This document shows positions 7,440-24,415 of a stretch of DNA of 64,000 bases, piece by piece. Origin of the DNA: an uncultured Bacteriovoracaceae bacterium (GTDB taxonomy: Bacteria > Bdellovibrionota > Bacteriovoracia > Bacteriovoracales > Bacteriovoracaceae); contig CATLOT010000013.1 of NCBI GenBank assembly GCA_950054155.1, forward strand, positions 1 to 64,000, in the 5' to 3' direction. Under the pieces are notes generated by a model. The model was not told where the DNA came from and did no database searches. It saw only the letters and a program-made list of their open reading frames with translations. The position numbers and the translations under genes were made by a program. Every line of letters starts with the position of its first letter. Position 1 is the first letter of the stretch.

Positions 7440-7440
7440 A

Positions 7441-8808
7441 ATGGTAACCGACTTTAAAAGCAGACAAGAGAAACTTCTCGGGCGCATCGATCATGGCGCC
7501 TTCATTATTCCTAGTGCTAAGCTTAAAACAAAGAGTAATGATACTGAGTTTCCCTTTCGTCAAAATAGCTTCTTTAAGTACTTTGTGGGCTTCGAAGAAG
7601 ATAATGCTCTCTTAGTTCTTAAGAAAGAGCGCGATGGTTCGATAAGACGTTTTCTCTTTGTTGAACCCAAGGACCCTACCCTTGAGATGTGGGCGGGAAT
7701 ACGTCTAGGAAAAGAGCGCGCTTTAGAACTCCTTGAAGTCGATGAAACCTACAATAATACTGACATTGAAGAAAAACTTCCCCACATCCTAAGCGGTGTG
7801 AGTGAACTCTATTTCAATCATTACGATCCTGAAAGTCGTGAGATGGTCCTTAAGGCCTCTCAAACCCTCAGTCGTCAGCGAAAGAATAAAAGCCCAAAGC
7901 CTCATAGCTGGAAACACTCTCTTCCCTTAATGGGCGAGCTAAGACTCGTAAAAGATCAAAGTGAAATTCAGGCCATGAAGAAAGCAGCTAAACTAACAGA
8001 CGTTGGCATGCGCGCGGCCATGGCCTTAAGCCGACCAGGGGTCAATGAAAAAGAAATCAACACTCTCCTCACCTACCTCTTTAACCAAGAACAAGGCGAG
8101 GGTCCGGCCTATGATTCCATTGTCGCTGGTGGAGAAAATGCCCTCATTCTTCACTACATTAACAACAATATGACCCTCAAAGAGGGAGACCTTCTTTTGA
8201 TTGATGCCGGCGCTCAGGTCAATACCTATGCAAGTGATGTGACCAGAACATTTCCCGTAAATGGAAAATTTACTGAGGCACAGGCAGAGCTCTACTCCCT
8301 TGTCCTTGACTCTCAAAAAGCGGCCATGGCCCACATGAAGATTGGAAATACCCTTGGCAGCATTCATCTTGAGACGTCAAAAGCGCTTGCTACCTCTCTA
8401 AAAGACGCTGGTATCCTGAGTGGCAGTCTCGATGAGATCATGGAAACAGGAAGCTATCGAACCTACTACCCTCACGGCACCGGCCACTGGCTAGGTCTTG
8501 ATGTCCATGACGAATCCCCTTATCTCATTGATGAAGGCAATGACACCCTTAGTGATGTCTGTCTTGAAGAGGGAATGGCCTTTACTTGTGAACCAGGACT
8601 TTATTTTCCTGCTGATGATAAAAATGTCCCCAGTAAATGGCGTGGCATTGGTATCCGTATTGAAGACGACCTCATTATGAATGAAAGTGGCTTCACCAAT
8701 ATCACAAGTAGTATTCCAAAAGAAATCAAAGAGGTGGAAGAGGCCTGTCAGGGAGATCTTAAGAGTATCCTAAACAAACTTGAAACTCTCCCCTTGATGG
8801 CCAAATAG
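7441..8808 (+). CDS. pepP: Xaa-Pro aminopeptidase (aminopeptidase P, M24B)
   Basis: This 455-residue metallopeptidase has the N-terminal creatinase-like domain (residues ~10-140) and the C-terminal pita-bread domain. It removes N-terminal residues that precede proline. The five expected metal ligands are visible: Asp in LIDAGAQ, Asp in ASDVTRTF, His in HGTGHWLGLDVHD, Glu in CEPGLYF and Glu in GIRIEDD. Length is near the E. coli enzyme (441). It starts right after lysK, with GAAGGAG in the end of that gene as ribosome site, and is followed seven bases later by a small secreted protein. Confidence 0.95.
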   Translation: MVTDFKSRQEKLLGRIDHGAFIIPSAKLKTKSNDTEFPFRQNSFFKYFVGFEEDNALLVLKKERDGSIRRFLFVEPKDPTLEMWAGIRLGKERALELLEVDETYNNTDIEEKLPHILSGVSELYFNHYDPESREMVLKASQTLSRQRKNKSPKPHSWKHSLPLMGELRLVKDQSEIQAMKKAAKLTDVGMRAAMALSRPGVNEKEINTLLTYLFNQEQGEGPAYDSIVAGGENALILHYINNNMTLKEGDLLLIDAGAQVNTYASDVTRTFPVNGKFTEAQAELYSLVLDSQKAAMAHMKIGNTLGSIHLETSKALATSLKDAGILSGSLDEIMETGSYRTYYPHGTGHWLGLDVHDESPYLIDEGNDTLSDVCLEEGMAFTCEPGLYFPADDKNVPSKWRGIGIRIEDDLIMNESGFTNITSSIPKEIKEVEEACQGDLKSILNKLETLPLMAK

Positions 8809-8815
8809 GAAAAGT

Positions 8816-9265
8816 ATGAAGACTCTCCTCACTACTCTCATTTGCGTTTTCTTAACTCCTCTTCACGCTCAAAGTTTCACCTTTGAGCATAGAGACTGCC
8901 AAATTAGGGTTAAGGAAGAAGGAAGTGATAAGGAGATGACCCACCTTCTCTCTCTTGCCAAAAATCTTCTTGAGCAGAGAAATTATAACGTTCTTCCTTT
9001 CATGGATAATAAAAGAGTTCTTCCAGGAGAGCTCTACTTCACCCTCAAGGTCACACGTTCAAAAGAGAGCATCTACAAACCTTGCTTTGTCTCCTTTGAT
9101 GTCAAACTTAGCACAGGTAATCTTCCTAAAGAGGCAGATAAAAAGCTCTTCAGTAAAGAGATCAAGCGCTCCCTTCCTCGCATAACATTTAGTGGTTCTG
9201 AGCGCTGTAGAATGGCCTTAGAGGACAGTTTTATTCATGTACCCACGTGCGTAGCCCAGAACTAG
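8816..9265 (+). CDS. Small secreted protein of unknown function
   Basis: A 149-residue protein with a clean signal peptide (MKTLLTTLICVFLTPLHAQS). The mature part carries four cysteines (DCQIRV, KPCFVSF, ERCRMAL and PTCVAQN), which could form two disulfides in the periplasm. I recognise no family. It is the last gene of the lysK-pepP run and its TAG overlaps the stop of the polyprenyl synthase gene tail to tail (CTAG, 9262-9265). Confidence 0.7.
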   Translation: MKTLLTTLICVFLTPLHAQSFTFEHRDCQIRVKEEGSDKEMTHLLSLAKNLLEQRNYNVLPFMDNKRVLPGELYFTLKVTRSKESIYKPCFVSFDVKLSTGNLPKEADKKLFSKEIKRSLPRITFSGSERCRMALEDSFIHVPTCVAQN

Positions 9266-10233
9266 TAGCTTCTTGTTTCCAGAAATTTAAGAATAAACTC
9301 AAAAGTAGCACGAGACTTCTTAAGGTGCTCCTTACTCAGTCGTGCTTCAAGGATGGCATCCATTTGATCAAGAAGAGAGCGGCAGTGATCTAATTTTTCA
9401 CAAGCTTCTTTTCTTATCTTTTCAATGGCCTTTTCAATATGGGTGAAGTCGGTTTGTTCATCGAGCTCACCTTTTTCAAACTTAGCTTTCATATCAGGCT
9501 GATCCATAAGCCATTCATAGAGAACCGCATTGACCTGGCCGTTTTTAAGATCGAGAAAGGCATCTTTTTCACTCTCACCATTAAAGTCGAAAGTATCATC
9601 AAGATATTGAAAGGCGATTCCAAGGGAGCGTCCAAAATCATGACAAAGCTCATAGAGCTCTTTCGCCTCAGGACTTTTAAGCGCAGGGGCAACAGCACAC
9701 CAACTCATCACACTTGAAGTTTTCTTAAGGGCAATCTCTTCAATGGCCTCACGCGTATAAGCGCGGCTAACAACAAGATCGGCCTGAAGCCATTCACCCT
9801 GACTTAATAATTCAATGACCTTGGCCATTTCTTTGACGAGCTCCAGATCTCCCTCGCGCGAGAGTTCTCCGATCACGCTGGCCAAGAGATAATCCCCGGC
9901 CAAAACGGCTTTCTTATTAGTCGCCTGAATATTAATGCTCTCTCTTCCTCTTCTGGTACTTGCCCCATCAATGACATCATCGTGGGCCAGTGAAGCGGCA
10001 TGAACCATTTCAATGGCGCGGGCACAAACATCCACTTCTTTGAGGTCAACACCAAAATATTGGGCAAAGAGATAAGTGAGCATTGGTCTAAGACGCTTTC
10101 CGCCCTTGAGCACACTCTTTTGCAAAAGTTCGTCCATCGCCTTTTGGCCATAGGTACTAGGAACACTGACATCAAAGGTGCTTATTCGGGAAGTTATCCC
10201 AGGTGGAATATGTCTTAGAAATTTTACGTTCAT
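9262..10233 (-). CDS. ispB: Polyprenyl diphosphate synthase (quinone side chain)
   Basis: A 323-residue trans-isoprenyl diphosphate synthase. It carries both aspartate-rich motifs: HDDVID with RRGR (residues ~84-96) and YLDDTFDF (~218), where the second replaces the more usual DDxxD tail. The first domain also has GGKRLRPML. This type makes the long all-trans chain (C35-C45) that MenA joins to dihydroxynaphthoate. The gene is divergent from ubiE-menFDAC, which fits a quinone role; exact chain length cannot be read from the sequence. Confidence 0.93.
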   Translation of the reverse strand: MNVKFLRHIPPGITSRISTFDVSVPSTYGQKAMDELLQKSVLKGGKRLRPMLTYLFAQYFGVDLKEVDVCARAIEMVHAASLAHDDVIDGASTRRGRESINIQATNKKAVLAGDYLLASVIGELSREGDLELVKEMAKVIELLSQGEWLQADLVVSRAYTREAIEEIALKKTSSVMSWCAVAPALKSPEAKELYELCHDFGRSLGIAFQYLDDTFDFNGESEKDAFLDLKNGQVNAVLYEWLMDQPDMKAKFEKGELDEQTDFTHIEKAIEKIRKEACEKLDHCRSLLDQMDAILEARLSKEHLKKSRATFEFILKFLETRSY

Positions 10234-10335
10234 TTGTGTAAGTCCTAGTTATCACTTTGGTGAATATACTGTAAACTTGAAACTAAAGAAGACACAGCGA
10301 ATAAAGCTACCTAAACACTAGGCAAAGGACCTCCC

Positions 10336-11097
10336 ATGACTCAGTCGGATCAAAATTCATCAAATGAGCAACACCTTGCGCTCAAAGAGCGTAAGAATGA
10401 AAGCTATAAAATCTTTGATGATATCGCGACAACCTATGATCCTCTTAATCGCTTCCTAAGCCTTGGGATCGATGTAAGGTGGCGTCATCGCATGAGAAAG
10501 GAGTTACCGCAAAAGCCCAATCTTGAAATCTTGGACCTGGCCACGGGTACCGCTGATGTTCCCCTTATCCTCATTAAGAACTCTAATATCTCAAAAATTA
10601 GAGGGCTTGATATGTCTAAGAATATGATCGCTATTGGAGATCAAAAAATCCTTAAGGCCAACCTTGAAGAGAAGATCACTCTTGGGATTGGCGATGGTTG
10701 TGCTTTACCTGAGAAGGATAACACTTGGGATGTGACAACGGTGAGCTTTGGTATTCGAAACTTTCCCGACTACTTTAAAGGTCTCCAGGAAATGTTTCGT
10801 GTTCTCAAACCCGGAGGCCAAATCATGGTGATGGAATTTAGCCTTCCCACCAACTTTTTGATTCGTGCCATCTACCTCTTCTATTTTAGAAAGGTCCTTC
10901 CCTTTATTGGCAATATTTTTAGTGGCCACGGTGATGCCTATAGTTACCTCAACAAAACGGTTGAGGACTTCCCCTATGGCGAGGACTTCATCAATAAAAT
11001 GAAAGAAGCGAAATTTATTGAAACACGGGCAATCCCTCTCACCTTTGGGATAGCCACTCTCTATATTGGAACAAAACCTCAAGTCGTCAAACCATGA
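10336..11097 (+). CDS. ubiE: Demethylmenaquinone C-methyltransferase
   Basis: This 253-residue SAM-dependent methyltransferase does the last step of menaquinone synthesis. Motifs include FDDIATTYDPLNRFLSLG, the SAM-binding LDLATGTADVP, and VSFGIRNFPDYFKGLQEMFRVLKPGG, all diagnostic of UbiE/MenG. AAAGGA lies eight bases before the ATG. Its TGA overlaps the ATG of the next gene, and it leads the men gene run. Since no ubiquinone-specific gene is seen, the name menG would be equally apt. Confidence 0.96.
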   Translation: MTQSDQNSSNEQHLALKERKNESYKIFDDIATTYDPLNRFLSLGIDVRWRHRMRKELPQKPNLEILDLATGTADVPLILIKNSNISKIRGLDMSKNMIAIGDQKILKANLEEKITLGIGDGCALPEKDNTWDVTTVSFGIRNFPDYFKGLQEMFRVLKPGGQIMVMEFSLPTNFLIRAIYLFYFRKVLPFIGNIFSGHGDAYSYLNKTVEDFPYGEDFINKMKEAKFIETRAIPLTFGIATLYIGTKPQVVKP

Positions 11098-12257
11098 TAA
11101 AAGTTGAAAGAGAGAACCTTTCCCTTTATCGCCAAAGCTACGAGGGCCCCCTTAATTTACACGCCTTCACAGGCCTTGAAGGTCTCCTTTATTGGAAGAA
11201 TAAGGAGGGCACCCAATATATTGGCCTTGGTCGCTGCGAGAAAATACTAAATGAAGAAATGCCCTTCTTCCACTACGCAAGTTTTGAAGGAGAACACACT
11301 CTCCTCTTTTGCCCTTTAGTTTTTAAAATCACAAACACTGAAATCGTCGTCTTTGAGCAAAGCGGTCATGACCCTCTCTCCATTCTTGGTGTTAATGTCT
11401 CTGACTTTATAAAAAAGCTCTCTCTTTCCAAAGAAGAGGTGGCCACAGCAAGTTTTAAACTTGCAGAACTCTCTCCCTCCTTTGAAAGATGGCAGGAGAG
11501 AGTTAATGTAAGTCTAGAAACTGAGGGACTTAAAAAAAGCGTGCTCTGTCGTAAGTTTACCTATGAAGGTCATGGCCCTAAAAATAGCTTTGACTTCTTC
11601 CTTGACCTTAAGACCAAGAATGCAGCAGATCTCTTTCATTGCTACTTTGATGACTTTATGAGCTTTACTCCAGAGTCCCTTATAAAATTAGAGGGAAGTC
11701 AATGCAGCCTTGAGGCCATAGCCGGAACCCATAAGAATGATGGCCAAGAAGAAGAGCTTCTTCATGATCCTAAAGAGAGGCGTGAACACCTTGAGGTCAT
11801 CTCCTCTCTTGAAGAGCTCGCAAGTAAAGTGGGAAAAGTAAGAAAGGGAGAAACGGCACTTTTAAAACTTAAAACCCTTAGTCATCTTCGAACCCCACTA
11901 AGCCTTGAATTAGAAGAGGGCTTTGATCGTCAAAAGCTCTACTCTCTCATTCTTAGCCTCCATCCCACACCGGCGGTTGGGGGGACTCCTAAAGAGATGG
12001 CCCTTGAATTTATCAAGAAAGAAGAAGGCGAGAGAGGTCCCTACGCGGGCTTCTTTGGAGTTGAAGAACAGGACTATCTTGAGCTCAGTGTCCTCATTCG
12101 CTCCCTTCACTACCACTGCCAAAAAGTCGTGGCCTATGGGGGAGCAGGAATCGTTGAAGGCAGTAGTGCAAAAGGAGAATGGCAGGAAACCTTTAATAAA
12201 GTGCAATCCTTTCTCCCCTGTCTCTACTTTGATCATGAGCTTCCCAAAGGAAATTAG
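11094..12257 (+). CDS. menF: Isochorismate synthase
   Basis: A 387-residue chorismate-utilising enzyme, first step of the menaquinone pathway (chorismate to isochorismate). The conserved C-terminal domain is visible from about residue 210, with SLHPTPAVGGTPK, ERGPYAGFFG and YGGAGIVEGS. The N-terminal part is weakly conserved, as is usual. It is somewhat shorter than E. coli MenF (431). It overlaps ubiE by four bases (ATGA) and abuts menD, so the steps are co-translated. Confidence 0.92.
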   Translation: MIKVERENLSLYRQSYEGPLNLHAFTGLEGLLYWKNKEGTQYIGLGRCEKILNEEMPFFHYASFEGEHTLLFCPLVFKITNTEIVVFEQSGHDPLSILGVNVSDFIKKLSLSKEEVATASFKLAELSPSFERWQERVNVSLETEGLKKSVLCRKFTYEGHGPKNSFDFFLDLKTKNAADLFHCYFDDFMSFTPESLIKLEGSQCSLEAIAGTHKNDGQEEELLHDPKERREHLEVISSLEELASKVGKVRKGETALLKLKTLSHLRTPLSLELEEGFDRQKLYSLILSLHPTPAVGGTPKEMALEFIKKEEGERGPYAGFFGVEEQDYLELSVLIRSLHYHCQKVVAYGGAGIVEGSSAKGEWQETFNKVQSFLPCLYFDHELPKGN

Positions 12258-14000
12258 ATGAATAATCCAAGCGAAGTGTGGTCGACTCTAGTTATTGACC
12301 AATTTGTAAAATCAGAGGTCACCCACTTTTTCTGCTGCCCCGGCATGCGAAATGCCCCTCTCCTTAAAGCGATCTCTAAGAATAAATTGGCCCACGCTCA
12401 CCCAGGCATTGATGAGCGCGCCCAAAGTTTTCGCGCCCTCGCCTTTATGAAAGCCCACAAGGTCCCCGTCGCCCTCGTCTGTACCAGTGGCACAGCATTG
12501 GCCAATTTCTTGCCGGCGATTATTGAAGCCCAGAAGACTCACCTTCCCCTTATGGTCATTAGTGCCGATCGCCCAGGTGAGCTCAATGCCACTGATGCCA
12601 ACCAAACGATTAATCAAATAGAGGTTCTTCGCGATTACACCAAAGAGTTTTGGTGTGCGAGTGAGCCTCAATCCTCCTTTGCACCAGAGGCACTCGCAGC
12701 AAAGATCTGTTTTCTTATTTCACAATCCCTCACCAAACCAAGAGGTCCCTTTCATCTCAATCTCCCGCTGCGCGAGCCCCTTGATCATCAGACGGCTCCT
12801 CTCGAAGAGGCATGGCTTTCAAGCGCCAAGGCCATCCTTGAGCAAGAGCTCCCCCAGCTTCGAATCCCTAAGACCTCCTCTGTTATTGAGGACTCCGTCA
12901 TAACAGAGCTCTTCGCTAAACTTGAAAGAGCGAGCAGACCTCTTATCGTCTTTGGTCCTCTCGGGGCGTATGACTCCTATAAAGACCATCAGAAAGTAGT
13001 TAAAGAATTTATCGAAAACTATCGGGGTAGCTTTAGCTTTGATGTGACGACCGGACTTAAGTTTGAGTTTGGCAGCACAGAGGGACTCGTTCCAAGCCTC
13101 GACCATCCAGAGGTCCTTGCCCAACTTGAAGACAAGGAGCCTGACCTCATTATTCACTTTGGCCACCGCCTCACCAGCAAACACTACTATGGACTGCTGG
13201 CGCGTCTTAAGGCCAAGAAAAGACCCATCGTTCATATTGCCATGGGGGCCTTTCACGAGGACCCGGGCTTTAGCTTTAATGAACGCTGGCCTTTAAATCC
13301 TATTGATGCGCTCAAGGCCTTTAATAAGAAATTTAATAAGAGCACAAACTTCTCTCCTCTTGTTAACTGGCAAACCCTCATTCAGAGAAAGAGGGATCTT
13401 ATTGAAGAAGGCCCTCTCTCTTATCCCTATCTCACAAAGAAAGCGGTTGACCTCTTAAAAGGCCCCTATCAGGTCTTCATAGGCAACTCCACTTTTATCC
13501 GAAGCTTTGATAGCTACGCCTGTCATGAAAGTCCAAAAGCCCAGTGGCACGTCCTCACCAACCGTGGGGCCAGTGGTATTGAGGGGCATGTGGCCATGGC
13601 CCACGGTATGGGGCTCCAAAAGAAAGCCCCCTATCTTGCTTTCATTGGAGACGTGAGCTTTCTTCATGATCAGGCTTCCTTACAGTACTTCAAGGGAGAT
13701 GAGCAGGCCTTAGTGGTCATAGCAAATAATCAAACTGGGGGCATCTTCAATCTTCTGCCCATCGGTTCAGACCCAGAGGCGAAGGACTATCTTCCTCTTA
13801 TGACTACCGATCACAATCATGACCTCACAAAGATTATTTCAGCTTATAATATTCCTGTAAAAGAGATCTCCACTAAAGAGCAGTACTGTGAGGAGCTTAA
13901 AAAGTGGATTGCAGCGCCATCCCTTCTCTTTTTAAATACTCGCTTTAGTGATGCTGATAATATTAAAATTTATAAAGAACTCAAGACTCTTAAATTATGA
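12258..14000 (+). CDS. menD: SEPHCHC synthase (MenD)
   Basis: This 580-residue thiamine-diphosphate enzyme joins isochorismate to 2-oxoglutarate-derived succinic semialdehyde. Typical blocks are PGMRNAPL at the N-terminus, HPGIDERAQSFRALAFMKA, CTSGTALANFLPAI, SADRPGELNATDANQTINQ, the ThDP-binding FIGDVSFLHD and NNQTGGIFNLLP. It begins immediately after the menF stop with AAGGAAAT upstream, and overlaps menA by four bases (ATGA). Confidence 0.97.
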   Translation: MNNPSEVWSTLVIDQFVKSEVTHFFCCPGMRNAPLLKAISKNKLAHAHPGIDERAQSFRALAFMKAHKVPVALVCTSGTALANFLPAIIEAQKTHLPLMVISADRPGELNATDANQTINQIEVLRDYTKEFWCASEPQSSFAPEALAAKICFLISQSLTKPRGPFHLNLPLREPLDHQTAPLEEAWLSSAKAILEQELPQLRIPKTSSVIEDSVITELFAKLERASRPLIVFGPLGAYDSYKDHQKVVKEFIENYRGSFSFDVTTGLKFEFGSTEGLVPSLDHPEVLAQLEDKEPDLIIHFGHRLTSKHYYGLLARLKAKKRPIVHIAMGAFHEDPGFSFNERWPLNPIDALKAFNKKFNKSTNFSPLVNWQTLIQRKRDLIEEGPLSYPYLTKKAVDLLKGPYQVFIGNSTFIRSFDSYACHESPKAQWHVLTNRGASGIEGHVAMAHGMGLQKKAPYLAFIGDVSFLHDQASLQYFKGDEQALVVIANNQTGGIFNLLPIGSDPEAKDYLPLMTTDHNHDLTKIISAYNIPVKEISTKEQYCEELKKWIAAPSLLFLNTRFSDADNIKIYKELKTLKL

Positions 14001-14878
14001 ATCCATGGATCATGGCCGCCAGGCCTAAAACACTTCCCGCAGGCATGGCCCCCGTTCTCTTGGGACTGGCCCTTCACCTCTCATTAGGGGGAAGCCTTAA
14101 TGTCCCGATTGCCCTTATCACTCTTCTTTGTACCCTCCTTCTTCAAATCTCAAGTAACCTGATAAACGATTACTACGATGGTGTTAAGGGGACGGATACT
14201 GAAGAGCGCTTGGGACCACCAAGGGCAACCGCCTTAGGTCTCTTAAGTCCAAAGCAAGTTAAAAAGGGCTTCCTAAGCACCATGCTTGCCGCCTTCTTCT
14301 TAGGTCTCATTCTCATGGCCCATGGAGGCCTCCCCATAATTGTCATCGGCCTAAGCTCACTCTTCTTTGCTTGGGCCTACACAGGAGGTCCCTTCCCCTT
14401 GAGTTACTTTGGTCTTGGTGAAATCTTCGCCTTTATTTTCTTTGGCCCCGTTGCCGTGACCGGAACATGGTATCTTCAGGCGCCAGGGGTTACGAGCGTC
14501 CCCACAGAAGTTCTCCTTGTCGGCAGTGCCGTTGGTCTGATTAGTGCGGCCTTAATGGGCGTTAATAATCTGCGCGATATTGACAGTGACAAAAAAGCGG
14601 GAAAAACAACGCTAGCAACTCTTGTCGGTGACTGGTCTATGAGAAAGATCATTGTCCTCTTTCTTATTGTCAGCCAACTCATCATGCTTTCTCTCTTTAA
14701 AGACAGACCCCTTAGTATCTTGATCGGTCTTATTCCCTTAGGCCTTTTCTATAAGTACTGGTGGCAACTCTTAGGAACCGTAAGAGGAAAGGATCTTAAT
14801 AATACTCTGGCCACTGTAGGAAAGTACCTCTTCCTCTTTGGTCTCTTCTATTCAAGTCAACTGATATGGAAGATCTAG
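13997..14878 (+). CDS. menA: 1,4-dihydroxy-2-naphthoate polyprenyltransferase
   Basis: A 293-residue integral membrane prenyltransferase with about eight hydrophobic segments. The first Asp-rich motif is NLINDYYDGVKGTD (residues ~54-67) and the second is NNLRDIDSDKKAGKTTLA (~189-206), both characteristic of MenA. It attaches the polyprenyl chain to dihydroxynaphthoate in the inner membrane. Its start overlaps menD by four bases and its end overlaps menC by 13. Confidence 0.96.
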   Translation: MNPWIMAARPKTLPAGMAPVLLGLALHLSLGGSLNVPIALITLLCTLLLQISSNLINDYYDGVKGTDTEERLGPPRATALGLLSPKQVKKGFLSTMLAAFFLGLILMAHGGLPIIVIGLSSLFFAWAYTGGPFPLSYFGLGEIFAFIFFGPVAVTGTWYLQAPGVTSVPTEVLLVGSAVGLISAALMGVNNLRDIDSDKKAGKTTLATLVGDWSMRKIIVLFLIVSQLIMLSLFKDRPLSILIGLIPLGLFYKYWWQLLGTVRGKDLNNTLATVGKYLFLFGLFYSSQLIWKI

Positions 14879-15672
14879 TTGTTTTTCCCTACAAAGCGAA
14901 ACTTCCCTTTGCTCAAATCGTAGCAGGAAAGAAAGTGACAACCAAAGAGGGTGCCCTTATCAAGGTTGGGGATCAGGCCCTCCTTGACCTTTCTCCCTTT
15001 CCTGGATTTTCCCCCTATTCCCTGAAGGAGACAGTAAAAGAATTTAAGAGTGCTTTTCAAAAGGGACTCAAGGACCACAGAAATCCTCATGTGGACTTTG
15101 CCCTTTATCAACTACAGCTGCAAAGAGACGGACTAACTTCAAAGGTGAATATCCCTCCTCATAATATTCTCCTCGATCCCCTCGCTTTAAGAGAGAGTAA
15201 GAATCTTAAAGGGGTTATCAAAACCAAGCTTCGAAAGGATACCTTTGGCATAATTTTAAAGGCCATTAAAGACCATCCCAAAGTGCTCTGGCGCCTCGAT
15301 GGGAATGCGAAATTTAAAAGAGATGACTATTTAAGAATGGAAGAAAAGCTCATGCGCTTTCAGGAGAGAATCGATTATATCGAAGAGCCACTTCGTGACT
15401 TTAAAGACTATGAAGCCTGTACTCTGAGCTATGCTCATGAAGAGCATTGGAAGCTCTATCTTAAGGAGAGGACAAAGGCCTGCGCAGTTGTCGTTAAACC
15501 TTCTCAGGTGGGAATGAGTTCCCTCAAGAAGATAAAAGCTCGTCTCATTCTAAGCAGCTGCTTTGAAACTCCGCCAGCTCTCCACGCTCTCTATTACTTG
15601 GCAAAAAAAAATGCCCCAGAAACACATGGTCTTGGGGCATTCACGACATTTGATAATTTAAACTGGATTTAG
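14866..15672 (+). CDS. menC: o-Succinylbenzoate synthase
   Basis: A short (268-residue) enolase-superfamily enzyme that dehydrates SHCHC to o-succinylbenzoate. The KxK catalytic pair is in GVIKTKLRKD, the first metal Asp in WRLDGNAKF, the second ligand in YIEEPLRDF and the distal Lys in VVKPSQVG. The third acidic ligand is less obvious; HEEHWKLY is the likely place. It starts inside the end of menA without a ribosome site, so translation is coupled. The last ~25 codons contain the terminator of the opposing gene and the stop overlaps that gene's stop (TTAG). Confidence 0.85.
   Translation: MEDLVVFPYKAKLPFAQIVAGKKVTTKEGALIKVGDQALLDLSPFPGFSPYSLKETVKEFKSAFQKGLKDHRNPHVDFALYQLQLQRDGLTSKVNIPPHNILLDPLALRESKNLKGVIKTKLRKDTFGIILKAIKDHPKVLWRLDGNAKFKRDDYLRMEEKLMRFQERIDYIEEPLRDFKDYEACTLSYAHEEHWKLYLKERTKACAVVVKPSQVGMSSLKKIKARLILSSCFETPPALHALYYLAKKNAPETHGLGAFTTFDNLNWI
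15603..15641 (-). terminator. Rho-independent terminator nested inside menC
   Basis: On the minus strand ATGCCCCA pairs with TGGGGCAT across a loop of about 14 bases, followed by nine T residues (the A run at 15603-15611). It lies 28 bases past the stop of the minus-strand secreted-protein gene. The same DNA encodes the C-terminus of MenC on the plus strand, where no T run follows, so termination should be one-directional. Confidence 0.85.
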
Positions 15673-16454
15673 AGCTTAATGATCTCTCCATTTCCAGCGA
15701 CGTGAAATGATTCGCTAGAAGAGATTTCTCTAAAGACACTTGAGGCTTTGTAGTCAATCTTAACTGTTGCGCCTGCGATAGGATTGGCGACACTTCCACG
15801 GTTACTGATTGTTTCAAGTCCACTTGAAGCATTGAATTCAAAGCCCCAGCTCACAGCTACACTTGCAGCTCTTACTGTGACGCCAGTGAGGTACTGGCCT
15901 TTTCCTTCATAGTTGCCACCATATTGAAAGTATACAATGTAATCAAAAGAGATCACATTCATACCAAAGCCATTCTTGTAAGCAACACGATACTTACGTG
16001 CTCTTGGTGCTGCCCATCCCCCCATTTGAGTGAAAGCAAAGCGTGCATCTTCTGTTTCAGGAAGAACAGATATAGGTTTACCCATATTAATATTGGTAAC
16101 AGGCTTACCTTTTTTAATGATCTCCCAAACCTTTGTACCAAAAGCGATAAGCTTTTCAGCATTCATGATCCAGGTTCCAAGGTCCTTAGCAAAGGCCTCG
16201 GGAGAAATTGTTTTAAAGTTTTTGTGAGGAGAGAAGGTTTCCTCTTCCGCGATAAAAGGAGAAACTTCCTCGTTTAAGTCAGTAACGGTGATTTCTTCGA
16301 TTTCAAAGTAGGGGTCATTCCCAAGAACTTCATCAAATTTTACGCTCTTTTGTGCTTTTTCTGTCTCAGTGAATTCAAGAAAACGAGTAGAATTACTTGC
16401 CCAAGAAGACACTGTAAATGCTGCGAGTAAAAATAAAAGTGATAAATTTTTCAT
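15669..16454 (-). CDS. Secreted protein of unknown function, 261 residues
   Basis: It has a signal peptide (MKNLSLLFLLAAFTVSSWAS) and AAGGGGGAG before the ATG. The first ~90 mature residues are acidic, then a segment rich in Gly and aromatic residues (GGWAAPRARKYRVAYKNGFGM) leads into a beta-rich C-terminal half. There, FDYIVYFQYGGNYEGKGQYL suggests a beta-sandwich or barrel. I recognise no family. It has its own strong terminator embedded in menC and is probably a single-gene unit. Confidence 0.7.
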   Translation of the reverse strand: MKNLSLLFLLAAFTVSSWASNSTRFLEFTETEKAQKSVKFDEVLGNDPYFEIEEITVTDLNEEVSPFIAEEETFSPHKNFKTISPEAFAKDLGTWIMNAEKLIAFGTKVWEIIKKGKPVTNINMGKPISVLPETEDARFAFTQMGGWAAPRARKYRVAYKNGFGMNVISFDYIVYFQYGGNYEGKGQYLTGVTVRAASVAVSWGFEFNASSGLETISNRGSVANPIAGATVKIDYKASSVFREISSSESFHVAGNGEIIKL

Positions 16455-16660
16455 TGGCTCCCCCTTGCCTAAGCTTTGCCTGAGCCCTTTTTAGGAAACC
16501 CAATACTTACCGTCAACTAAAAACAACTGTCTTTTTAAGCCCTAACTGATTCCTGTTATTAGTTCAAGCTTAAGAAGATTTAGTTAATTGATTGATTTCA
16601 CATAACTATAAAGACTATAGGCGCCCTTTTAACGCATCACAGCTTGTGCTAAAAAAAGTC

Positions 16661-18511
16661 ATGCGAATTCTGATACTTACCCTTTTTCTAACATTAAAGA
16701 GCGTCTATGGTGCTGGCGTTGGTCAGGCCATTGCAAATGGTCTTGGGAGTCTGTCTTCAGGAATTAGCGAAATTAACCTTGAAAGTGATGCTCTTGGAAT
16801 TGATAAAGGCATCGTTGCGGGAACAATTATTGGTCTTTCAAGAACAGTTGAAAAGAATCCATTTCCTACCTCTAAAGAGGATCAGTTCCTCGTCAAAGAT
16901 TATATGAAGATTGGCTATCAATTGGGCGCGGGCTTTGTTGTCAGTGGTATCGTCAGCTACGTGCAGGAGTGGACCTTAGTCTATCCCGTGGCAACCAATA
17001 TGAAAGGGACCCTCAGTCGCAAGTTTATCGTGGATCTTTTCCTTCCCGTGCGCGTCGCTGGTTATGAAGACAGTGCCATTATTAATAAACTGCCCCAGGA
17101 CTATAGTTTAATACGAGAAGTAAGTCTTCAAGGACATGGACGCATTAAACTTGGTGGTGGCGTCCCCTTTCTTATCGGCATTGAAGGCAGGGCCGGAAAG
17201 GTTCTCTTTAACCGTCATCTTCTTAAAAGAAGACCTCAAGAAGGTCTTAGTGTTATGAGAGAGACCGGAGACTATTGGCATCTTGCGAGTGAATTATGGA
17301 TGAACCTCGCTCTCTTTAATCTCCCCATCGCCGACAATGAAATGAAAATAGGTGATTCCACAAGAGTCTATTTAAAGATACCTGAGCGTGACTATAGAAA
17401 TGAAAGGACGGCCCAACTCGCGCGCTCTTTACTAAGTGGCAAGGCCAATGAACAACTTGAAGACCTTATAAGAGACGAAGGTGTGAGTCGAGTCATTAAG
17501 ACTCAGTTTAAAGAGTCCTATGCAGGCCTTAATTTCATCGCTCTCTTTAATAGAGAAACCTTTACTCGAGAGGACTATGTAACAGACACTCTTTATAACG
17601 AAGGAAACCCACCGACAGAGAGTGAGTGGTGGGTTTATCAAGATCGTCATATTCAAGAGTGGACCACGGGACTTCAAAGCGAGACGATGAAAAGTCAGGT
17701 CTTTCTTGAAGGCCAGTGGCAAGAGGATGGTCTTAGAAATCCACTTCTCTCCCTTCATATTAGCGCCCATGACTTTGAGACCACTCAGGAGGAGTATGAT
17801 TCTGTTTACTATCCTCTCTTAAGAAAATTTGAAAGTGGTGCTCAGGGAATTATTCCCTCCCATGAAACAAGACTCCCTTTAGAGGACCTACCCTATTCTC
17901 AAACTCAGCTAATATTTCGCTACGATGAGAGCGACCTTTTAAAACTCCTCGCTCTCTCCGAACGCGACTGGTTCGACGCCCTAGAGACGGTAACAGGCAA
18001 GAAGAGTTCCTTTTGGAAGCAAACGGCAAAGACAGGCTTTCATGGCCGTGAACGCTCACGCTTGCGCCAAAATCGGATGACCTTACGGGATCTTCAAATG
18101 GCCAAAAAAGTCATGAGCATTCTTCGCCTATGGAAGAAAGCACAGAAGCTTAAAAAGAACTCTTCAAGAAAGGATCAAACGGCCGCTCTTAGGATCATTG
18201 GTTATGCCATGAGAAGAAGCCTGATGATAGGGGATCGCGCTTGGAATACCAAACTCTTAGAGGCCCTAGAGATCATGGTGCCAGCAAGCCAAAAGGTCCT
18301 TGGCTTTACCTTATATCCTCAAGACATCAATCGTTTGTCGGGGACGCCTCTTGCTGTAAAAGAGGTCCATCGCCTCGTTAGGGATAAGAACGTCGATCAC
18401 TTAAGTCAGGAAACAGTAAAAAATCTTTTGACCTTTTTAAGACCGCGCTACAATATGCTCTTAGATGATCCTAGCGAGATTTATCATCACTTTCGCACCT
18501 TTGCCCCTTGA
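16661..18511 (+). CDS. Large secreted protein of unknown function, 616 residues
   Basis: The ATG at 16661 opens directly on a signal peptide (MRILILTLFLTLKSVYGAG). The alternative TTG at 16592 adds a polar leader and is less likely. The N-terminal half includes Gly-rich and beta-type segments (QGHGRIKLGGGVPFLIGIEG), and residues ~460-560 are strongly basic and helical (RERSRLRQNRMTLRDLQMAKK). It matches no family I know. The downstream lexA promoter overlaps its TGA stop. A role in the envelope is inference from the signal peptide only. Confidence 0.65.
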   Translation: MRILILTLFLTLKSVYGAGVGQAIANGLGSLSSGISEINLESDALGIDKGIVAGTIIGLSRTVEKNPFPTSKEDQFLVKDYMKIGYQLGAGFVVSGIVSYVQEWTLVYPVATNMKGTLSRKFIVDLFLPVRVAGYEDSAIINKLPQDYSLIREVSLQGHGRIKLGGGVPFLIGIEGRAGKVLFNRHLLKRRPQEGLSVMRETGDYWHLASELWMNLALFNLPIADNEMKIGDSTRVYLKIPERDYRNERTAQLARSLLSGKANEQLEDLIRDEGVSRVIKTQFKESYAGLNFIALFNRETFTREDYVTDTLYNEGNPPTESEWWVYQDRHIQEWTTGLQSETMKSQVFLEGQWQEDGLRNPLLSLHISAHDFETTQEEYDSVYYPLLRKFESGAQGIIPSHETRLPLEDLPYSQTQLIFRYDESDLLKLLALSERDWFDALETVTGKKSSFWKQTAKTGFHGRERSRLRQNRMTLRDLQMAKKVMSILRLWKKAQKLKKNSSRKDQTAALRIIGYAMRRSLMIGDRAWNTKLLEALEIMVPASQKVLGFTLYPQDINRLSGTPLAVKEVHRLVRDKNVDHLSQETVKNLLTFLRPRYNMLLDDPSEIYHHFRTFAP

Positions 18512-18535
18512 CTTACGCATTTCTTACGCCATAAT
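18508..18535 (+). promoter_or_regulatory. lexA-dinB promoter with a candidate LexA operator
   Basis: TTGACT (18508-18513) and CATAAT (18530-18535) are 16 bases apart. Between and overlapping them is the direct repeat TTAC-N7-TTAC (18513-18516 and 18524-18527). The layout copies the alphaproteobacterial LexA box GTTC-N7-GTTC with a different half-site. Only six bases separate the -10 from the lexA ATG at 18542, so the transcript would be leaderless. The promoter overlaps the stop codon of the previous gene. Confidence 0.6.
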
Positions 18536-18541
18536 AGTTTT

Positions 18542-19162
18542 ATGGGATTAACAAAGAAACAACACGAAGTTTATCAGTATATTAAAACCTATAGCGAAGA
18601 AAAGGGCTATGCTCCTACTCAGCGCGAGATTAAAGAGCATTTTGGTCTTAAGAGCTACGGCTCCGTTCAGCGCTACCTCAAGTATCTTAAAGATGCTGAT
18701 CTTCTCTCCACCGATTGGAATGCCAAACGTGGCCTTACTCTGACAGAGAGTGAAAAAACAGATCAGGGGGCTTCCTTTGAAAGTGAGATCCCCCTTCTCG
18801 GTGATGTTGCCGCTGGTAATCCCATTGAGGCCCTTGAAAACCCTACGGAGAACATCATGGTTCCCACTCATCTTCTTAATCCAGGCTCACAGCATTTTGC
18901 TCTGCGAGTGCGAGGTGACTCCATGATTGAAGATGGTATTCTCGATGGGGACCTTGCCATTCTTAAGCATGTTCAAAATGCCCATGCAGGAGAGACTATT
19001 GTTGCCGTTATCGACGGAGAGGCGACCCTTAAGAAATTCTATAAGAAGAAGAATCATATCGAGCTTCATCCTGCCAATGCAACGATGGTTCCCATTATCG
19101 TCGACTCTCAACAAGACTGTAAGATTGTCGGTCGTCTGATTGGGCTTTTTCGCTCCTATTAA
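18542..19162 (+). CDS. lexA: LexA repressor
   Basis: A full-length 206-residue SOS repressor. The N-terminal winged helix-turn-helix has the usual GYAPTQREI block. The self-cleavage site is Ala91-Gly92 in DVAAGNP, and the catalytic dyad is Ser127 (RGDSMIEDGI) with Lys164 (ATLKKF). On DNA damage, RecA-stimulated cleavage would lift repression. dinB follows after five bases, so repressor and translesion polymerase are co-regulated. There is no Shine-Dalgarno; the mRNA appears leaderless. Confidence 0.97.
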   Translation: MGLTKKQHEVYQYIKTYSEEKGYAPTQREIKEHFGLKSYGSVQRYLKYLKDADLLSTDWNAKRGLTLTESEKTDQGASFESEIPLLGDVAAGNPIEALENPTENIMVPTHLLNPGSQHFALRVRGDSMIEDGILDGDLAILKHVQNAHAGETIVAVIDGEATLKKFYKKKNHIELHPANATMVPIIVDSQQDCKIVGRLIGLFRSY

Positions 19163-19167
19163 AAACT

Positions 19168-20334
19168 ATGGGCGCTCCACATCTCAATCTAGATAGTGAA
19201 AAGAGAAAGATAATTCACGTCGATATGGACTGCTTCTTTGCCGCCGTTGAAGAACTTGATAATCCTTCTTTAAAAGGCAAGGCCGTCGCCGTTGGGGGCA
19301 GCCCTTCAGGTCGTGGGGTTCTTTGTACGGCGAATTATGAAGCGAGAAAATTTGGAGTAAGAAGTGCGATGAGCTCTGCCCATGCTCTAAAAAAGTGCCC
19401 GCATCTTATTTTCATTCGTCCACGCTCTTCTCGCTATAAGGAATTTGCCCTCAAGATAAGAGAGATCTTTTCTCGTTACACCGACCTTATCGAACCCCTT
19501 AGTCTTGATGAAGCCTATCTTGATGTCACTCATTGTGAGCGCCATCAGGGAAGTGCCACACTTATTGCCCAAGAAATTAAGGACACCATCTTTAAAGAAA
19601 CGGGATTAACGGCCAGTGCTGGGGTAGCCCCCAATAAATTTCTCGCAAAAGTGGCGAGTGATTGGAAGAAACCCAATGGCCTCTTCACCGTAAGCCCCGA
19701 TCAGGCCAAAGACTTTGCCATGAATTTATCCCTCAAGAAAGTTCCCGGTGTAGGGGACGTCACTTTTAGGAAGTGTGTCGCTCTAGGGCTGCATACGTTA
19801 AAAGATATTCAGGAGAAACCCATCGGATGGCTTGAGATAAAGCTTGGAAAGCTTGGTCCAAGCCTTTTAAGGAAAAGCTTTGGAATAGACAACCGCCCCG
19901 TTTCAACGGGTCGACCAGCAAAGAGCATCAGCACCGAAGAGACTTACAATAAGGATTTAGAAACATTTTCAGAAATTGAAGAGCGTATCCCCTTCCTTGC
20001 TGAAGAAGCCCTTGAGCGCCTTTCTCGCCACCTCAAAAAGAAGAGTGATTGCCCAAGCCCCCACAAAATTTTTATAAAAATTAAAACCTGTCAATTCAAC
20101 TCTCACACCCACGAGGGCATTCTGCGCCACCTTGACGTTCACCTCAACGAAGAGACTCTTCGAAACACTCCTCATCTTTATCAGGACCTAATCGCTAAGG
20201 TTGTCACCCCAATGTATAAGGAGTTGTATGATCAGTGCGCTCAGACACCCTTGCGCCTTTTAGGTTTGGGATTTAGACTCAATGTGAGCTCAAGTTATGA
20301 ACTTGAACGCTTGGGACAGCTGCGCTTACTCTAA
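19168..20334 (+). CDS. dinB: DNA polymerase IV (Y-family translesion polymerase)
   Basis: This 388-residue Y-family polymerase has the catalytic carboxylates in HVDMDCFFAAVEE (residues ~17-29) and PLSLDEAYLDVT (~110-121), plus the helix-hairpin-helix KVPGVGDVT. It copies across damaged bases with low fidelity. A beta-clamp-binding peptide should lie at the C-terminus; the end reads RLGQLRLL, a fair match to QLxLF-type motifs. It forms an SOS operon with lexA. Confidence 0.96.
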   Translation: MGAPHLNLDSEKRKIIHVDMDCFFAAVEELDNPSLKGKAVAVGGSPSGRGVLCTANYEARKFGVRSAMSSAHALKKCPHLIFIRPRSSRYKEFALKIREIFSRYTDLIEPLSLDEAYLDVTHCERHQGSATLIAQEIKDTIFKETGLTASAGVAPNKFLAKVASDWKKPNGLFTVSPDQAKDFAMNLSLKKVPGVGDVTFRKCVALGLHTLKDIQEKPIGWLEIKLGKLGPSLLRKSFGIDNRPVSTGRPAKSISTEETYNKDLETFSEIEERIPFLAEEALERLSRHLKKKSDCPSPHKIFIKIKTCQFNSHTHEGILRHLDVHLNEETLRNTPHLYQDLIAKVVTPMYKELYDQCAQTPLRLLGLGFRLNVSSSYELERLGQLRLL

Positions 20335-20352
20335 ACGAGTGAAAGGATAATT

Positions 20353-22182
20353 TTGACTTCTTGGCAATTCATCACTCTCCCCTCTCGACCCGACTCAGAT
20401 GAGCACAGGTCTCTGGCACGAGATTCTTTTGAACGCGGATATAGTATTTTTGCCAATCATGAGCTTCACGGTGAGCTCTTTGAACTTTTTAACCTTGATC
20501 TCTTAAATCAATCTCAAGATTTTAATGACTGTGTAGGATTTCTCTCCAGTGGCTCTACAGGACTTCCCAAGATTGTCCTCCACAAGAAGAGCTCACTAGT
20601 AAGTTCAGCTGAAGTATCCCTCAAGCATCTTCTTAAATACTTTCCCGCTTATAAGAAAGAAGAGGTCTCTCTTTATAGCTCTCTCCCCTTATTTCATGTG
20701 GGCGGTTTTCTCAATCTCTTAAGGGATTGTCCCTTTCACCACCTCTCCTTTCGCGCTCTCTGTGAAGAAGTATCAAAAAAGAACTCCCCTGCAATCATTA
20801 TTGGAGTTCCCACGATGCTCTCTGACCTTGTTTCAAGAGAGGAGCAACATACTGATCTTCTCTTTTACTGCGGGGGCGGCCACTGTAGTGATGACCTTGT
20901 TAAAAAGGCCAATGCTCAGGGTATTGAGGTTATTCGCACCTATGGACAAACAGAAAGTTGTGGCGCCATTATTCATGCCCACAATCTTTTTGAGCCTGAA
21001 GTTTATGAAGATTGTATCGTTACCATCAAAGAAGGCCTTCTTCACTACGAGACGAAGAGGCAGGCTCGCGCTTACCTTACAACAGAAGGCCTCATTCCTC
21101 TTGAAGGCCCCATACAAACACAGGATCTCGCCACCAGAGAAGGTGGCCTTAAAATTCTAGGGCGTGCTGATCAGTTGATTATTTGTGGGGGAGAAAATAT
21201 TGACCTTTTCGAACTCCAAAAAAAACTCGCTCTCCATATCCCCTATCCTTTTACCTTAAAAGGACTTAAAGATTCACGCCTCGGTGAAGTCCCCATCGCC
21301 TTTGTTGAAGCAAGTCCTCTAGAAATCGCGCAAATGCTCCAAAAGGAAGAACTCCACAAAGGGCTTGATCGCGCTCGCGCTTTCTTAACACCACCAGATT
21401 TTAAAGGGATTAAACCCAATCTCGCTGATTACCAAAGAAAGTATGATCACTCCAAACGAATCCCTAAGAAGATACTCTTTATTCCTGGCTTTATGGGGCT
21501 GAGAGAAGAGGGAGACTTTTTAAAGACTCTTTATAATGACTATCGCAATTTTCACTATCAAGATCTCACCAGTGATCCAACCTCACCAAAGTTTTTAGAA
21601 ACTTCCCTCAAAGAACTTAAAGACTATATTGAGTATGAGAGGCCTGATCATATCTATGCCTACTCTATGGGAGCGCGGCTTTTAAATGCCATCTATAATG
21701 ATCTCACCCATAGGCCACTAACTCTTTTTATTGAAAGTTCAAAGCTTCTCCCTTCCTCTGAAGGGAAAGCGCGCCTCAAACTCGACCAAGAGCGGGCCGA
21801 AATGATTAAAGATGACTTCGAAAGCTTTCTGCACTCCTGGTATCAAGCACCTCTCTGGGCGCTTTCCCCCTCTGAACAAGAGCATATGCGGGAGCTGAAA
21901 TTTAATGGCTGGAAGGATCACACCGAGCTTCTCTGTGCGCTCCTCACTCACTTTGGCCCGGCCCATTTGCTTGCTCCAGAGCCCTCTCAAAGCGACCTTC
22001 TCAAGGAAGGCCCTAAGGTGCACTACTTTTATGGGGCCAAGGACCTCAAATATGCTCAAGAGGCAAAGCATCTTCAAAGCTTTGGTCTCAATATCTTTGA
22101 AGTGACTGGAGCAGGCCATAATATCCACTTTCAAAAGCCTCAAAGGCAACTTATGACCATAAAGGCCCTTAATTCTCTCTAA
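20353..22182 (+). CDS. MenE-MenH fusion: o-succinylbenzoyl-CoA ligase joined to SHCHC synthase
   Basis: This 609-residue protein combines two menaquinone enzymes. Residues 1-~370 are an AMP-forming ligase: P-loop SSGSTGLPKIV at ~60-72, TYGQTES, and GRADQLIICGGENI. This is MenE, which makes o-succinylbenzoyl-CoA, but with about 80 residues missing before the P-loop compared with E. coli. Residues ~372-609 are an alpha/beta hydrolase of MenH type: ILFIPGFMG, Ser438 in AYSMGARLL, Asp564 in FYGAKD and His589 in GAGHNIH, with the MenH-like lid (ERAEMIK, SWYQAPLWAL). MenH precedes MenC and MenE follows it, so the fusion carries two non-adjacent steps. It starts with TTG at 20353, supported by AAAGGAT, 18 bases after dinB. 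Confidence 0.85.
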   Translation: MTSWQFITLPSRPDSDEHRSLARDSFERGYSIFANHELHGELFELFNLDLLNQSQDFNDCVGFLSSGSTGLPKIVLHKKSSLVSSAEVSLKHLLKYFPAYKKEEVSLYSSLPLFHVGGFLNLLRDCPFHHLSFRALCEEVSKKNSPAIIIGVPTMLSDLVSREEQHTDLLFYCGGGHCSDDLVKKANAQGIEVIRTYGQTESCGAIIHAHNLFEPEVYEDCIVTIKEGLLHYETKRQARAYLTTEGLIPLEGPIQTQDLATREGGLKILGRADQLIICGGENIDLFELQKKLALHIPYPFTLKGLKDSRLGEVPIAFVEASPLEIAQMLQKEELHKGLDRARAFLTPPDFKGIKPNLADYQRKYDHSKRIPKKILFIPGFMGLREEGDFLKTLYNDYRNFHYQDLTSDPTSPKFLETSLKELKDYIEYERPDHIYAYSMGARLLNAIYNDLTHRPLTLFIESSKLLPSSEGKARLKLDQERAEMIKDDFESFLHSWYQAPLWALSPSEQEHMRELKFNGWKDHTELLCALLTHFGPAHLLAPEPSQSDLLKEGPKVHYFYGAKDLKYAQEAKHLQSFGLNIFEVTGAGHNIHFQKPQRQLMTIKALNSL

Positions 22183-22381: not shown

Positions 22382-24415
22382 ATGAGACGGACAACTAAAA
22401 ACTCTTCTCTTATGTGGACCCTCAAACTCTTAAGGAGTGGATTCCTCTGCTACTTTCTCGCCATTGGTTTTTCACCAGTAGTAAACGCCAATGATAATCT
22501 TCAAAGGAATGCTCCGACAACAGCGGTATCTGGTGGACATGGAGCTGCGACAAGTACCCCTGTTGAAAATATTGATGCCAATGGTGATGGTAAGGCAAAC
22601 GAAATTAAAGTTGAAGGGAATGATCTTAAGGCCGGCTCTAAGTTTCTTTTTTCCAATATTGCTCTCTTTGCTAGTGGCTTCTTTGCACCAACTCTTATTA
22701 AAGCTTGTCCCAAAACACCCTCTGTTTGGATTTTTGCGGGCTCAGCTCTCCTCTATGTTGCTAACGAGATCGGTCTTTTCACTGGGTTTAATAAAGCGAT
22801 TAACAGAGAAATGGTTGCTTATCTTGGCCGAGGTGATGAAGATCGACAAATTGATTCTCTAGAAGCTGCTTCAAAACAAACACGTGAAGCTCAAAAAGCC
22901 GCTAAGAAAAGAGCGATGATCTCTAAGATTACGGCGGCTGGTTTTGCTGCGGCCTCGGCCATGGCCTTTGCCGAAAGAGCAGACCTCTTTGGCCTTACGG
23001 GATGCAAGCCCGCGACTGGCTCCTATTTTAATCCACAACCAAAGAATCTTCTTCTTATTAATCCCCAAAGGTTTGCAATGGCTGAGTATTATTTCTCACA
23101 GCAACCAATGGAAAGATTTGTATCCGAACTCTCCAATGACATTAGCCTTTATCAAAGTCAGCCTACCCCTCATTTTAAGGAGAATGGTCTAGGCCAAAAA
23201 ATGATGAATTACCTTATAGGAAATACTTACGCTCAAGTCGGAACTGACAAGGATGCCAAAATTGTTGAAGATAAGGATGGAGAGAAAACCATCGTTGTAA
23301 ACTCCGTTGGCGCCAAACTGGCCGCAACTGGTCTTGGTGTAGCCGGTGGTCTTGCCGTCATGAAATACGCCAAAACAGCAGGGCCTGCTGTTAAAAAATT
23401 TGTTAAAGAACCTATCACTCGTGGCATAGGTTTTGGTGTTTTTTCTGCAACTGCCTTTATGGCAGCGAAAGAATCTGAAGAAGCGGCCCAAAAACTTGAT
23501 ACTCGTGCGAAGGAATATGACCGTCTTGCCGATAGCCTCAGAAGTCAAACAAGTCAGGATATTGGTCTTGAAACAGGAGCGACACATAGTCTAATCGATG
23601 GATCTATTCAAGGCATTGATAATGGCTCCAATAAAGGTATATCAAATAATGACGCTTGCTTCACAGGCGGAGCAGGACAAATTGTTGTTGATAGTAACTG
23701 TTCTTGTTCACAGAATAACTCTTGTAAGAAGCCAGAGATACCTAACCTAACGAAGCTTCCTGACTTTGGAGGACAAAGCCTTCTCTCTGATTCCATGAAA
23801 TCTCTGAGTGCAGCGGGTAGCAACCTCTACTCTGGGCGCCTCAAAGCCGGTAGCACAGAAGGTAATAAGCTTGTTAATAGCGCCGCTCGTATCACCAAGC
23901 TTCGTGATGCGCTTAAAGACAAAATTAATAAAGATCGTCTCGCCAAAGGAAATGATGCCATTGACTTTGCCAAAGCGGAAAAAGGTATGGAGGGCTTTCT
24001 CAAAAGAGAACTTGATGGTGCCTTTAATAGGCTCACACCTGCTGAACAAAGAACACTTGCAAATCTCAGTGGCGGAATTGGTAGAGGTAGCGATGATGAC
24101 GCCAATGAGGAGAAAGAAGATAAAGAAGGAGAAGGTACAGGAAGTGGCACAACAGCTGTTGCCGCTACCGATATCAATCCTAATCCTGGCAAGGCCAATG
24201 CGAATGCAGATGGAGGCACATGGGACTTTGACTTTGGTGAAGAGGCCCAAGGAAGTGCTGAGCAAGATGCTATGGCCCAGGCCCTAGAAGCTGAAGAAGA
24301 TCAGGACTATGTTGTTAAGGGTGATATTAATGATGATCGTCATAAGAACCTCTTTAATATCATTACAAGACGCTACTTAAAGTCAGCTTATCCCGTTATT
24401 TTTGAAGAAAAATAA
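22382..24415 (+). CDS. Large membrane/secreted protein of unknown function, 677 residues
   Basis: CGGAG lies eight bases before the ATG. The N-terminus has a long signal or anchor (residues ~14-36), then a DANGDG calcium-type loop (D65-G70). Hydrophobic segments follow at ~83-102 and ~108-130, with further Ala/Gly-rich helices later (~185-200, ~310-330, ~355-370). Residues ~430-450 hold a cysteine cluster (DACF, NCSCSQNNSC). The C-terminal third is acidic and low in complexity (EEKEDKEGEGTGSG) and ends with a conserved-looking basic tail. I recognise no family. It ends at a strong shared hairpin. Confidence 0.65.
   Translation: MRRTTKNSSLMWTLKLLRSGFLCYFLAIGFSPVVNANDNLQRNAPTTAVSGGHGAATSTPVENIDANGDGKANEIKVEGNDLKAGSKFLFSNIALFASGFFAPTLIKACPKTPSVWIFAGSALLYVANEIGLFTGFNKAINREMVAYLGRGDEDRQIDSLEAASKQTREAQKAAKKRAMISKITAAGFAAASAMAFAERADLFGLTGCKPATGSYFNPQPKNLLLINPQRFAMAEYYFSQQPMERFVSELSNDISLYQSQPTPHFKENGLGQKMMNYLIGNTYAQVGTDKDAKIVEDKDGEKTIVVNSVGAKLAATGLGVAGGLAVMKYAKTAGPAVKKFVKEPITRGIGFGVFSATAFMAAKESEEAAQKLDTRAKEYDRLADSLRSQTSQDIGLETGATHSLIDGSIQGIDNGSNKGISNNDACFTGGAGQIVVDSNCSCSQNNSCKKPEIPNLTKLPDFGGQSLLSDSMKSLSAAGSNLYSGRLKAGSTEGNKLVNSAARITKLRDALKDKINKDRLAKGNDAIDFAKAEKGMEGFLKRELDGAFNRLTPAEQRTLANLSGGIGRGSDDDANEEKEDKEGEGTGSGTTAVAATDINPNPGKANANADGGTWDFDFGEEAQGSAEQDAMAQALEAEEDQDYVVKGDINDDRHKNLFNIITRRYLKSAYPVIFEEK

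Follow-up and report, generated by a model that had tools for sequence, protein, structure and literature searches.

The established order of menaquinone (vitamin K2) biosynthesis is MenH, then MenC and then MenE, so that a protein uniting MenE with MenH would join two steps that are not adjacent in the pathway. A first-pass annotation proposed exactly such a union in a genome of the Bacteriovoracaceae, a family of mostly predatory bacteria, on the plus strand at positions 20353-22182 of a 64,000-nucleotide stretch of DNA (hereafter the window). The locus raises the question of whether a single gene encodes both enzymes, how widely this arrangement occurs in related genomes, by what route it came about and what the joining of steps on either side of MenC could bring to the cell. 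The reading frame was analysed using profile searches, structure prediction, comparison with related genomes and phylogenetic trees.

The region 20353-22182 forms one uninterrupted open reading frame of 609 amino acids, with the MenE part (residues 1-365, 20353-21447) placed ahead of the MenH part (residues 372-609, 21466-22179). Translation starts with a TTG codon at 20353, with the sequence AAAGGA at 20342-20347, 5 nt upstream of the start; this is the sole usable ATG, GTG or TTG start 5' of the P-loop, the next in-frame start being found at 20698 (residue 116). At the junction (residues 355-371, 21415-21465) the last MenE helix (residues 357-368) runs directly into MenH, and this stretch is devoid of a start codon. 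Between residues 300 and 400 the frame contains just two start codons, ATG328, which lies within MenE, and ATG381, which sits in the GFMG motif of MenH downstream of its first strand, and therefore a separate MenH cannot begin there. Pfam searches of the whole protein returned AMP-binding as the sole match. An AlphaFold2 model of the complete chain, built with 45 sequences from the window and its relatives, has a mean pLDDT of 88.7 and a pTM of 0.63, the latter value making the relative placement of the two halves uncertain. Since each half of this one frame matches its own family best by sequence and by predicted fold, as described below, the gene is a fusion as proposed, encoding MenE (o-succinylbenzoate-CoA ligase) and MenH (SHCHC synthase) in one chain, with both activities predicted.

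In the MenE half, the best NCBIfam model for residues 64-325 is menE (TIGR01923; 84 bits, E-value 8.5e-24), with the highest non-MenE ligase model at 60 bits. The score lies below the curated equivalog cut-off of 330, an annotation rule rather than a biological feature, owing to a short N-terminus and to divergence. The first nine PDB fold matches of the whole-protein model are all MenE structures, and sequence matches in the PDB include the E. coli and B. subtilis enzymes. All diagnostic features of MenE are present: the P-loop SSGSTGLPK (residues 65-73, 20545-20571) and the hinge motif GRADQLIICGGENI (residues 270-283, 21160-21201) are intact, and Lys354 of the GIK motif (21412-21414) occupies the position of the A10 catalytic lysine, which is conserved in 27 of 27 fusions and in all 8 split MenE proteins aligned. 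Arg124 (20722-20724), invariant among ten aligned fusions, aligns with E. coli MenE Arg195, an OSB-contacting residue that was altered in structure 5c5h (R195K/OSB-AMS). The first-pass annotation had also remarked that N-terminal residues of MenE are missing. The shortness is real, as the match to the menE profile starts only at profile position 120; a defect it is not, since the fusion aligns with little or zero offset to curated profiles of a short MenE form (PRK07824, 362 aa; PRK07445, 397 aa) that likewise lacks much of the N-terminal subdomain but is not joined to MenH. With such a form known and the structure model confident, a truncated or broken MenE was ruled out.

The C-terminal half was assigned with similar searches. 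For residues 417-604, menH_SHCHC (TIGR03695) is the best of all NCBIfam models, at 70.5 bits (E-value 1.4e-19) against a curated equivalog cut-off of 208.55, again a rule of annotation and not a property of the protein; the scores of both halves are highly significant yet fall under their cut-offs because the protein is divergent. Modelled alone, this half reaches a pLDDT of 93.7, and MenH structures from S. aureus, V. cholerae and E. coli take the first 14 places among its PDB fold matches, with esterases ranking after them, so that its assignment to MenH in preference to any other hydrolase family is upheld. It also matches in sequence the PDB entry 1r3d (VC1974), cited as an earlier-reported MenH structure (PMC3630204). 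The catalytic triad was found where it had been predicted, with Ser438 (nucleophile, 21664-21666), Asp564 (22042-22044) and His589 (22117-22119) corresponding to Ser86, Asp210 and His232 of E. coli MenH. Ten invariant non-glycine residues have been described for MenH, namely Tyr85, Ser86, Arg90, Arg124, Asp128, Trp147, Arg168, Asp210, Lys212 and His232 (PMC3630204), nine of which are identical in the fusion (Tyr437, Ser438, Arg442, Arg474, Asp478, Trp496, Asp564, Lys566 and His589); the Arg168 position falls in an uncertain region of the alignment and is apparently occupied by Lys. Phe23 of the oxyanion loop corresponds to Phe380, and the HG motif of MenH is replaced by PG (Pro378), as it is in four other aligned members of the genus.

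Most of the remaining pathway lies upstream on the same strand, in the order ubiE/menG methyltransferase (10336-11097; PF01209, 202 bits), menF for isochorismate synthase (11094-12257; TIGR00543, 171 bits, best match though under the cut-off), menD (12258-14000; TIGR00173, 297 bits, above the cut-off), menA (13997-14878, above the NCBIfam cut-off) and menC (14866-15672), whose best NCBIfam matches are o-succinylbenzoate synthases at 48.5 bits. MenC, which acts between MenH and MenE, is thus encoded by a gene of its own, separate from the fusion; it is short (268 aa) and strongly divergent. The menB gene is found elsewhere in the genome (407-587 bits, above the cut-off). A profile search of the genome found no separate MenE or MenH fitting better than the fusion, which is itself the best MenH match. 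One candidate menE on another contig (C2, 114221-115576) was rejected: it scores 282 bits with menE (cut-off 330) but 386 bits as a long-chain fatty acid CoA ligase, and it lies in an unrelated operon whose other genes encode hydrolases, an SDR and a KASIII-like protein. Three other menH candidates each score higher as another hydrolase, and the matches of such candidates lie mostly in the generic N-terminal hydrolase region (first 100 profile positions). An operon on contig C2 (positions 6192-11093 of locus L003), which encodes an AMP-ligase, an alpha/beta hydrolase, an SDR, a KASIII-like protein and a second hydrolase, is reminiscent of ole-type beta-lactone pathways or comparable acyl pathways.

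The same MenE-MenH order was sought in other genomes and proved to be a recurrent trait of the family: one frame extends over both halves in 41 of 129 Bacteriovoracaceae genomes, representing 15 of 48 genera; one of the 41 loci is interrupted by the end of its contig. When the best 30 loci were re-translated, every one gave a fused protein, and among the named records with the fusion are those of the isolates Bacteriovorax sp. BSW11_IV and Halobacteriovorax marinus. The fusion is thus neither an isolated curiosity nor an assembly slip. In a phylum survey of 241 genomes, no one-frame match beyond the Bacteriovoracaceae appeared among the matches listed, nor was one seen in about 170 genomes sampled elsewhere in the phylum. 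At the loci examined in Desulfatibacillum, other Desulfobacterota and Spirochaetes the two genes are separate; in these groups and in other Bacteriovoracaceae, menE and menH are adjacent and overlapping, mostly through an NTGA sequence, and in some relatives they are unlinked. Of the genus represented in the window, the six further members that were sampled show no fusion. In one species of the same genus (G003), menE still stands behind lexA and dinB while menH is located on a different contig.

The arrangement of the split genes suggests how the fusion could have been generated. In all 21 adjacent split pairs examined, the menH start coincides with the menE stop or adjoins it, in a different frame, mostly with the NTGA overlap. 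In the fusions, the distance from the A10 lysine of MenE to the glycine of the MenH HG or PG motif is 21-41 residues, a stretch made up of the last MenE helix and the first MenH strands, and hence no added linker is needed. Well-supported branches of the phylogenetic trees require at least four changes between the fused and split states, and parsimony on the concatenated tree requires seven. The fusion of the window nests among split genes within its own genus (95-99% SH-aLRT), which, together with the six genus members that lack it, makes it probably a separate event. The fusion apparently arose repeatedly by joining of neighbouring overlapping menE and menH genes. A fused ancestor with repeated fission instead may also account for the pattern, and since the trees have little support in their deep branches, the numbers of fusions and of fissions are uncertain.

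On this evidence from sequence and structure models, it is highly likely that the protein is a bifunctional menaquinone enzyme for steps 3 and 5, derived from overlapping menE and menH genes that became joined in frame. The C-terminal MenH half would convert SEPHCHC to SHCHC with removal of pyruvate (step 3), a separate MenC would form o-succinylbenzoate (step 4), and the N-terminal MenE half would convert this via an acyl-adenylate to the CoA thioester (step 5), after which MenB, encoded elsewhere, would close the second ring. The halves, joined tail to head almost without a linker, most likely act independently. An ancestral overlapping stop and start of the two genes would have been brought into one frame, an event that may have happened, or been reversed, several times within the Bacteriovoracaceae, and the benefit most likely lies in making the two enzymes in equal amounts and in a coupled way, not in channelling.

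Three other explanations were weighed against this bifunctional enzyme. The nearest relatives in the genus (G004, G005 and G006) have split overlapping genes, and a single indel would be enough to create a false join, so that the frame could stem from a sequencing or assembly error in a genome organised like those of its sister species. Against such an error, the MenH frame lacks a start codon near the junction and is open across it, and 40 other genomes of the family carry the two halves in one frame, several of them within one genus and with consistent linkers; we regard an artefact as most improbable. Loss of one activity, with the MenH half persisting as a remnant or serving as a DHNA-CoA thioesterase or a generic esterase, would fit the low profile scores and the replacement of HG by PG in the oxyanion loop, as well as the frequent absence of menH from bacteria with the classical pathway, where this step may be needed only under certain conditions (PMC6189191). 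All MenH-specific residues but one are nevertheless conserved, the Arg and Lys ligands included, and the predicted fold matches MenH ahead of any esterase, which makes this loss very unlikely.

The third explanation concerns the purpose of the fusion. Steps 3 and 5 flank MenC, and the plant protein PHYLLO unites early steps in a single polypeptide, so it is conceivable that the fusion takes up MenC or MenD between its two halves or next to them and channels intermediates within a small metabolon. The ready switching between fused and split states and the unlinked genes of some relatives indicate that a fixed assembly is not required, and a metabolon is accordingly considered very unlikely. That the fusion joins non-consecutive steps speaks for co-expression over channelling as the reason for such fusions.

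The genomic neighbourhood raises a further question, namely whether menaquinone synthesis belongs to the SOS regulon. The fusion is the third gene in a row (18542-22182) after lexA (18542-19162), the upstream gene of a probable operon, and dinB (19168-20334), which encodes a Y-family polymerase, all on the plus strand. A gap of 18 nt separates the dinB stop from the start of the fusion, which makes a shared transcript probable. The order lexA-(dinB)-menE(-menH) is found in most family loci examined and recurs in about a dozen genera, so that the locus is orthologous by position in most of them. In one genus the order is menF-menD-menA-menC-lexA-menE-menH, which suggests that lexA came to sit inside a pre-existing men operon. 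Three genes of the window, at 15669-16454 (minus strand), 16592-18511 (plus) and 22382-24415 (plus), encode proteins without a Pfam match over the curated cut-off and hold their place, in the menC-lexA interval or behind menE-menH, in several relatives.

A putative direct-repeat operator, CTTACGC-N4-CTTACGC (18512-18529, plus strand), lies in the spacer of the best sigma70-like promoter in the region (18508-18535). All 15 family loci checked that contain lexA carry the motif upstream of it, with at most two mismatches (10 being perfect), mostly 30-33 nt before the lexA start, and in the genome of the window it also precedes recA and a second Y-family polymerase gene. An exact search in 59 relatives gave matches in 20 genomes, of which 19 are Bacteriovoracaceae, whereas control matches numbered two; at the loci retrieved, the adjoining genes are lexA, recA, Y-family polymerases and umuDC-like pairs. 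The Bdellovibrio-type palindrome TTAC-N3-GTAA was sought before lexA and was absent. The repeat, equivalent to TTAC-N7-TTAC, is very probably the site to which LexA of the Bacteriovoracaceae would bind. It differs from the palindromic LexA site TTAC-N3-GTAA of Bdellovibrio bacteriovorus and resembles the alphaproteobacterial site GTTC-N7-GTTC in being a direct repeat (PMC8565304). The fusion is probably co-transcribed with lexA and dinB, and a menaquinone enzyme would in that case probably lie within an SOS operon and might be inducible by damage. The fuller proposal, in which LexA controls a lexA-dinB operon with the fusion as its third cistron, so that two non-adjacent menaquinone steps increase jointly upon DNA damage, is a tentative and rather doubtful one; if true, respiration and the SOS response would be wired together in the Bacteriovoracaceae.

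The coexistence of fused, overlapping and unlinked states among close relatives provides a natural test bed for the effects of gene fusion, and the protein itself is a two-enzyme tool ready for use in vitamin K2 production. No MenE-MenH fusion was found in the open-access literature, in agreement with the initial impression that it was not previously known, and a new pairing is thereby added to a short list of menaquinone-pathway fusions. The adjacent menE-menH pairs of Desulfobacterota, Spirochaetes and other Bacteriovoracaceae come closest, with the same enzymes in the same order and with stop and start overlapping or touching, but they yield two polypeptides, probably translationally coupled, in place of one. 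PHYLLO, the plant and algal MenF-MenD-MenC-MenH fusion, with FDHC-duf in diatoms (PMC6189191, PMC2412073), is likewise a menaquinone/phylloquinone enzyme fusion containing MenH; it covers the consecutive steps 1-4 without MenE, whereas the bacterial protein described here combines steps 3 and 5, with MenE ahead of MenH, and MenF, MenD and MenC are encoded by separate genes. The MenY-MenI (PF08282-thioesterase) fusions of gut bacteria (PMC4746308) are also bacterial two-domain proteins of the men pathway, but they consist of other enzymes, the role of MenH being ascribed there to a HAD-type domain. Among these known men-gene fusions, MenE-MenH is a new combination, and most likely an ordinary bifunctional enzyme.
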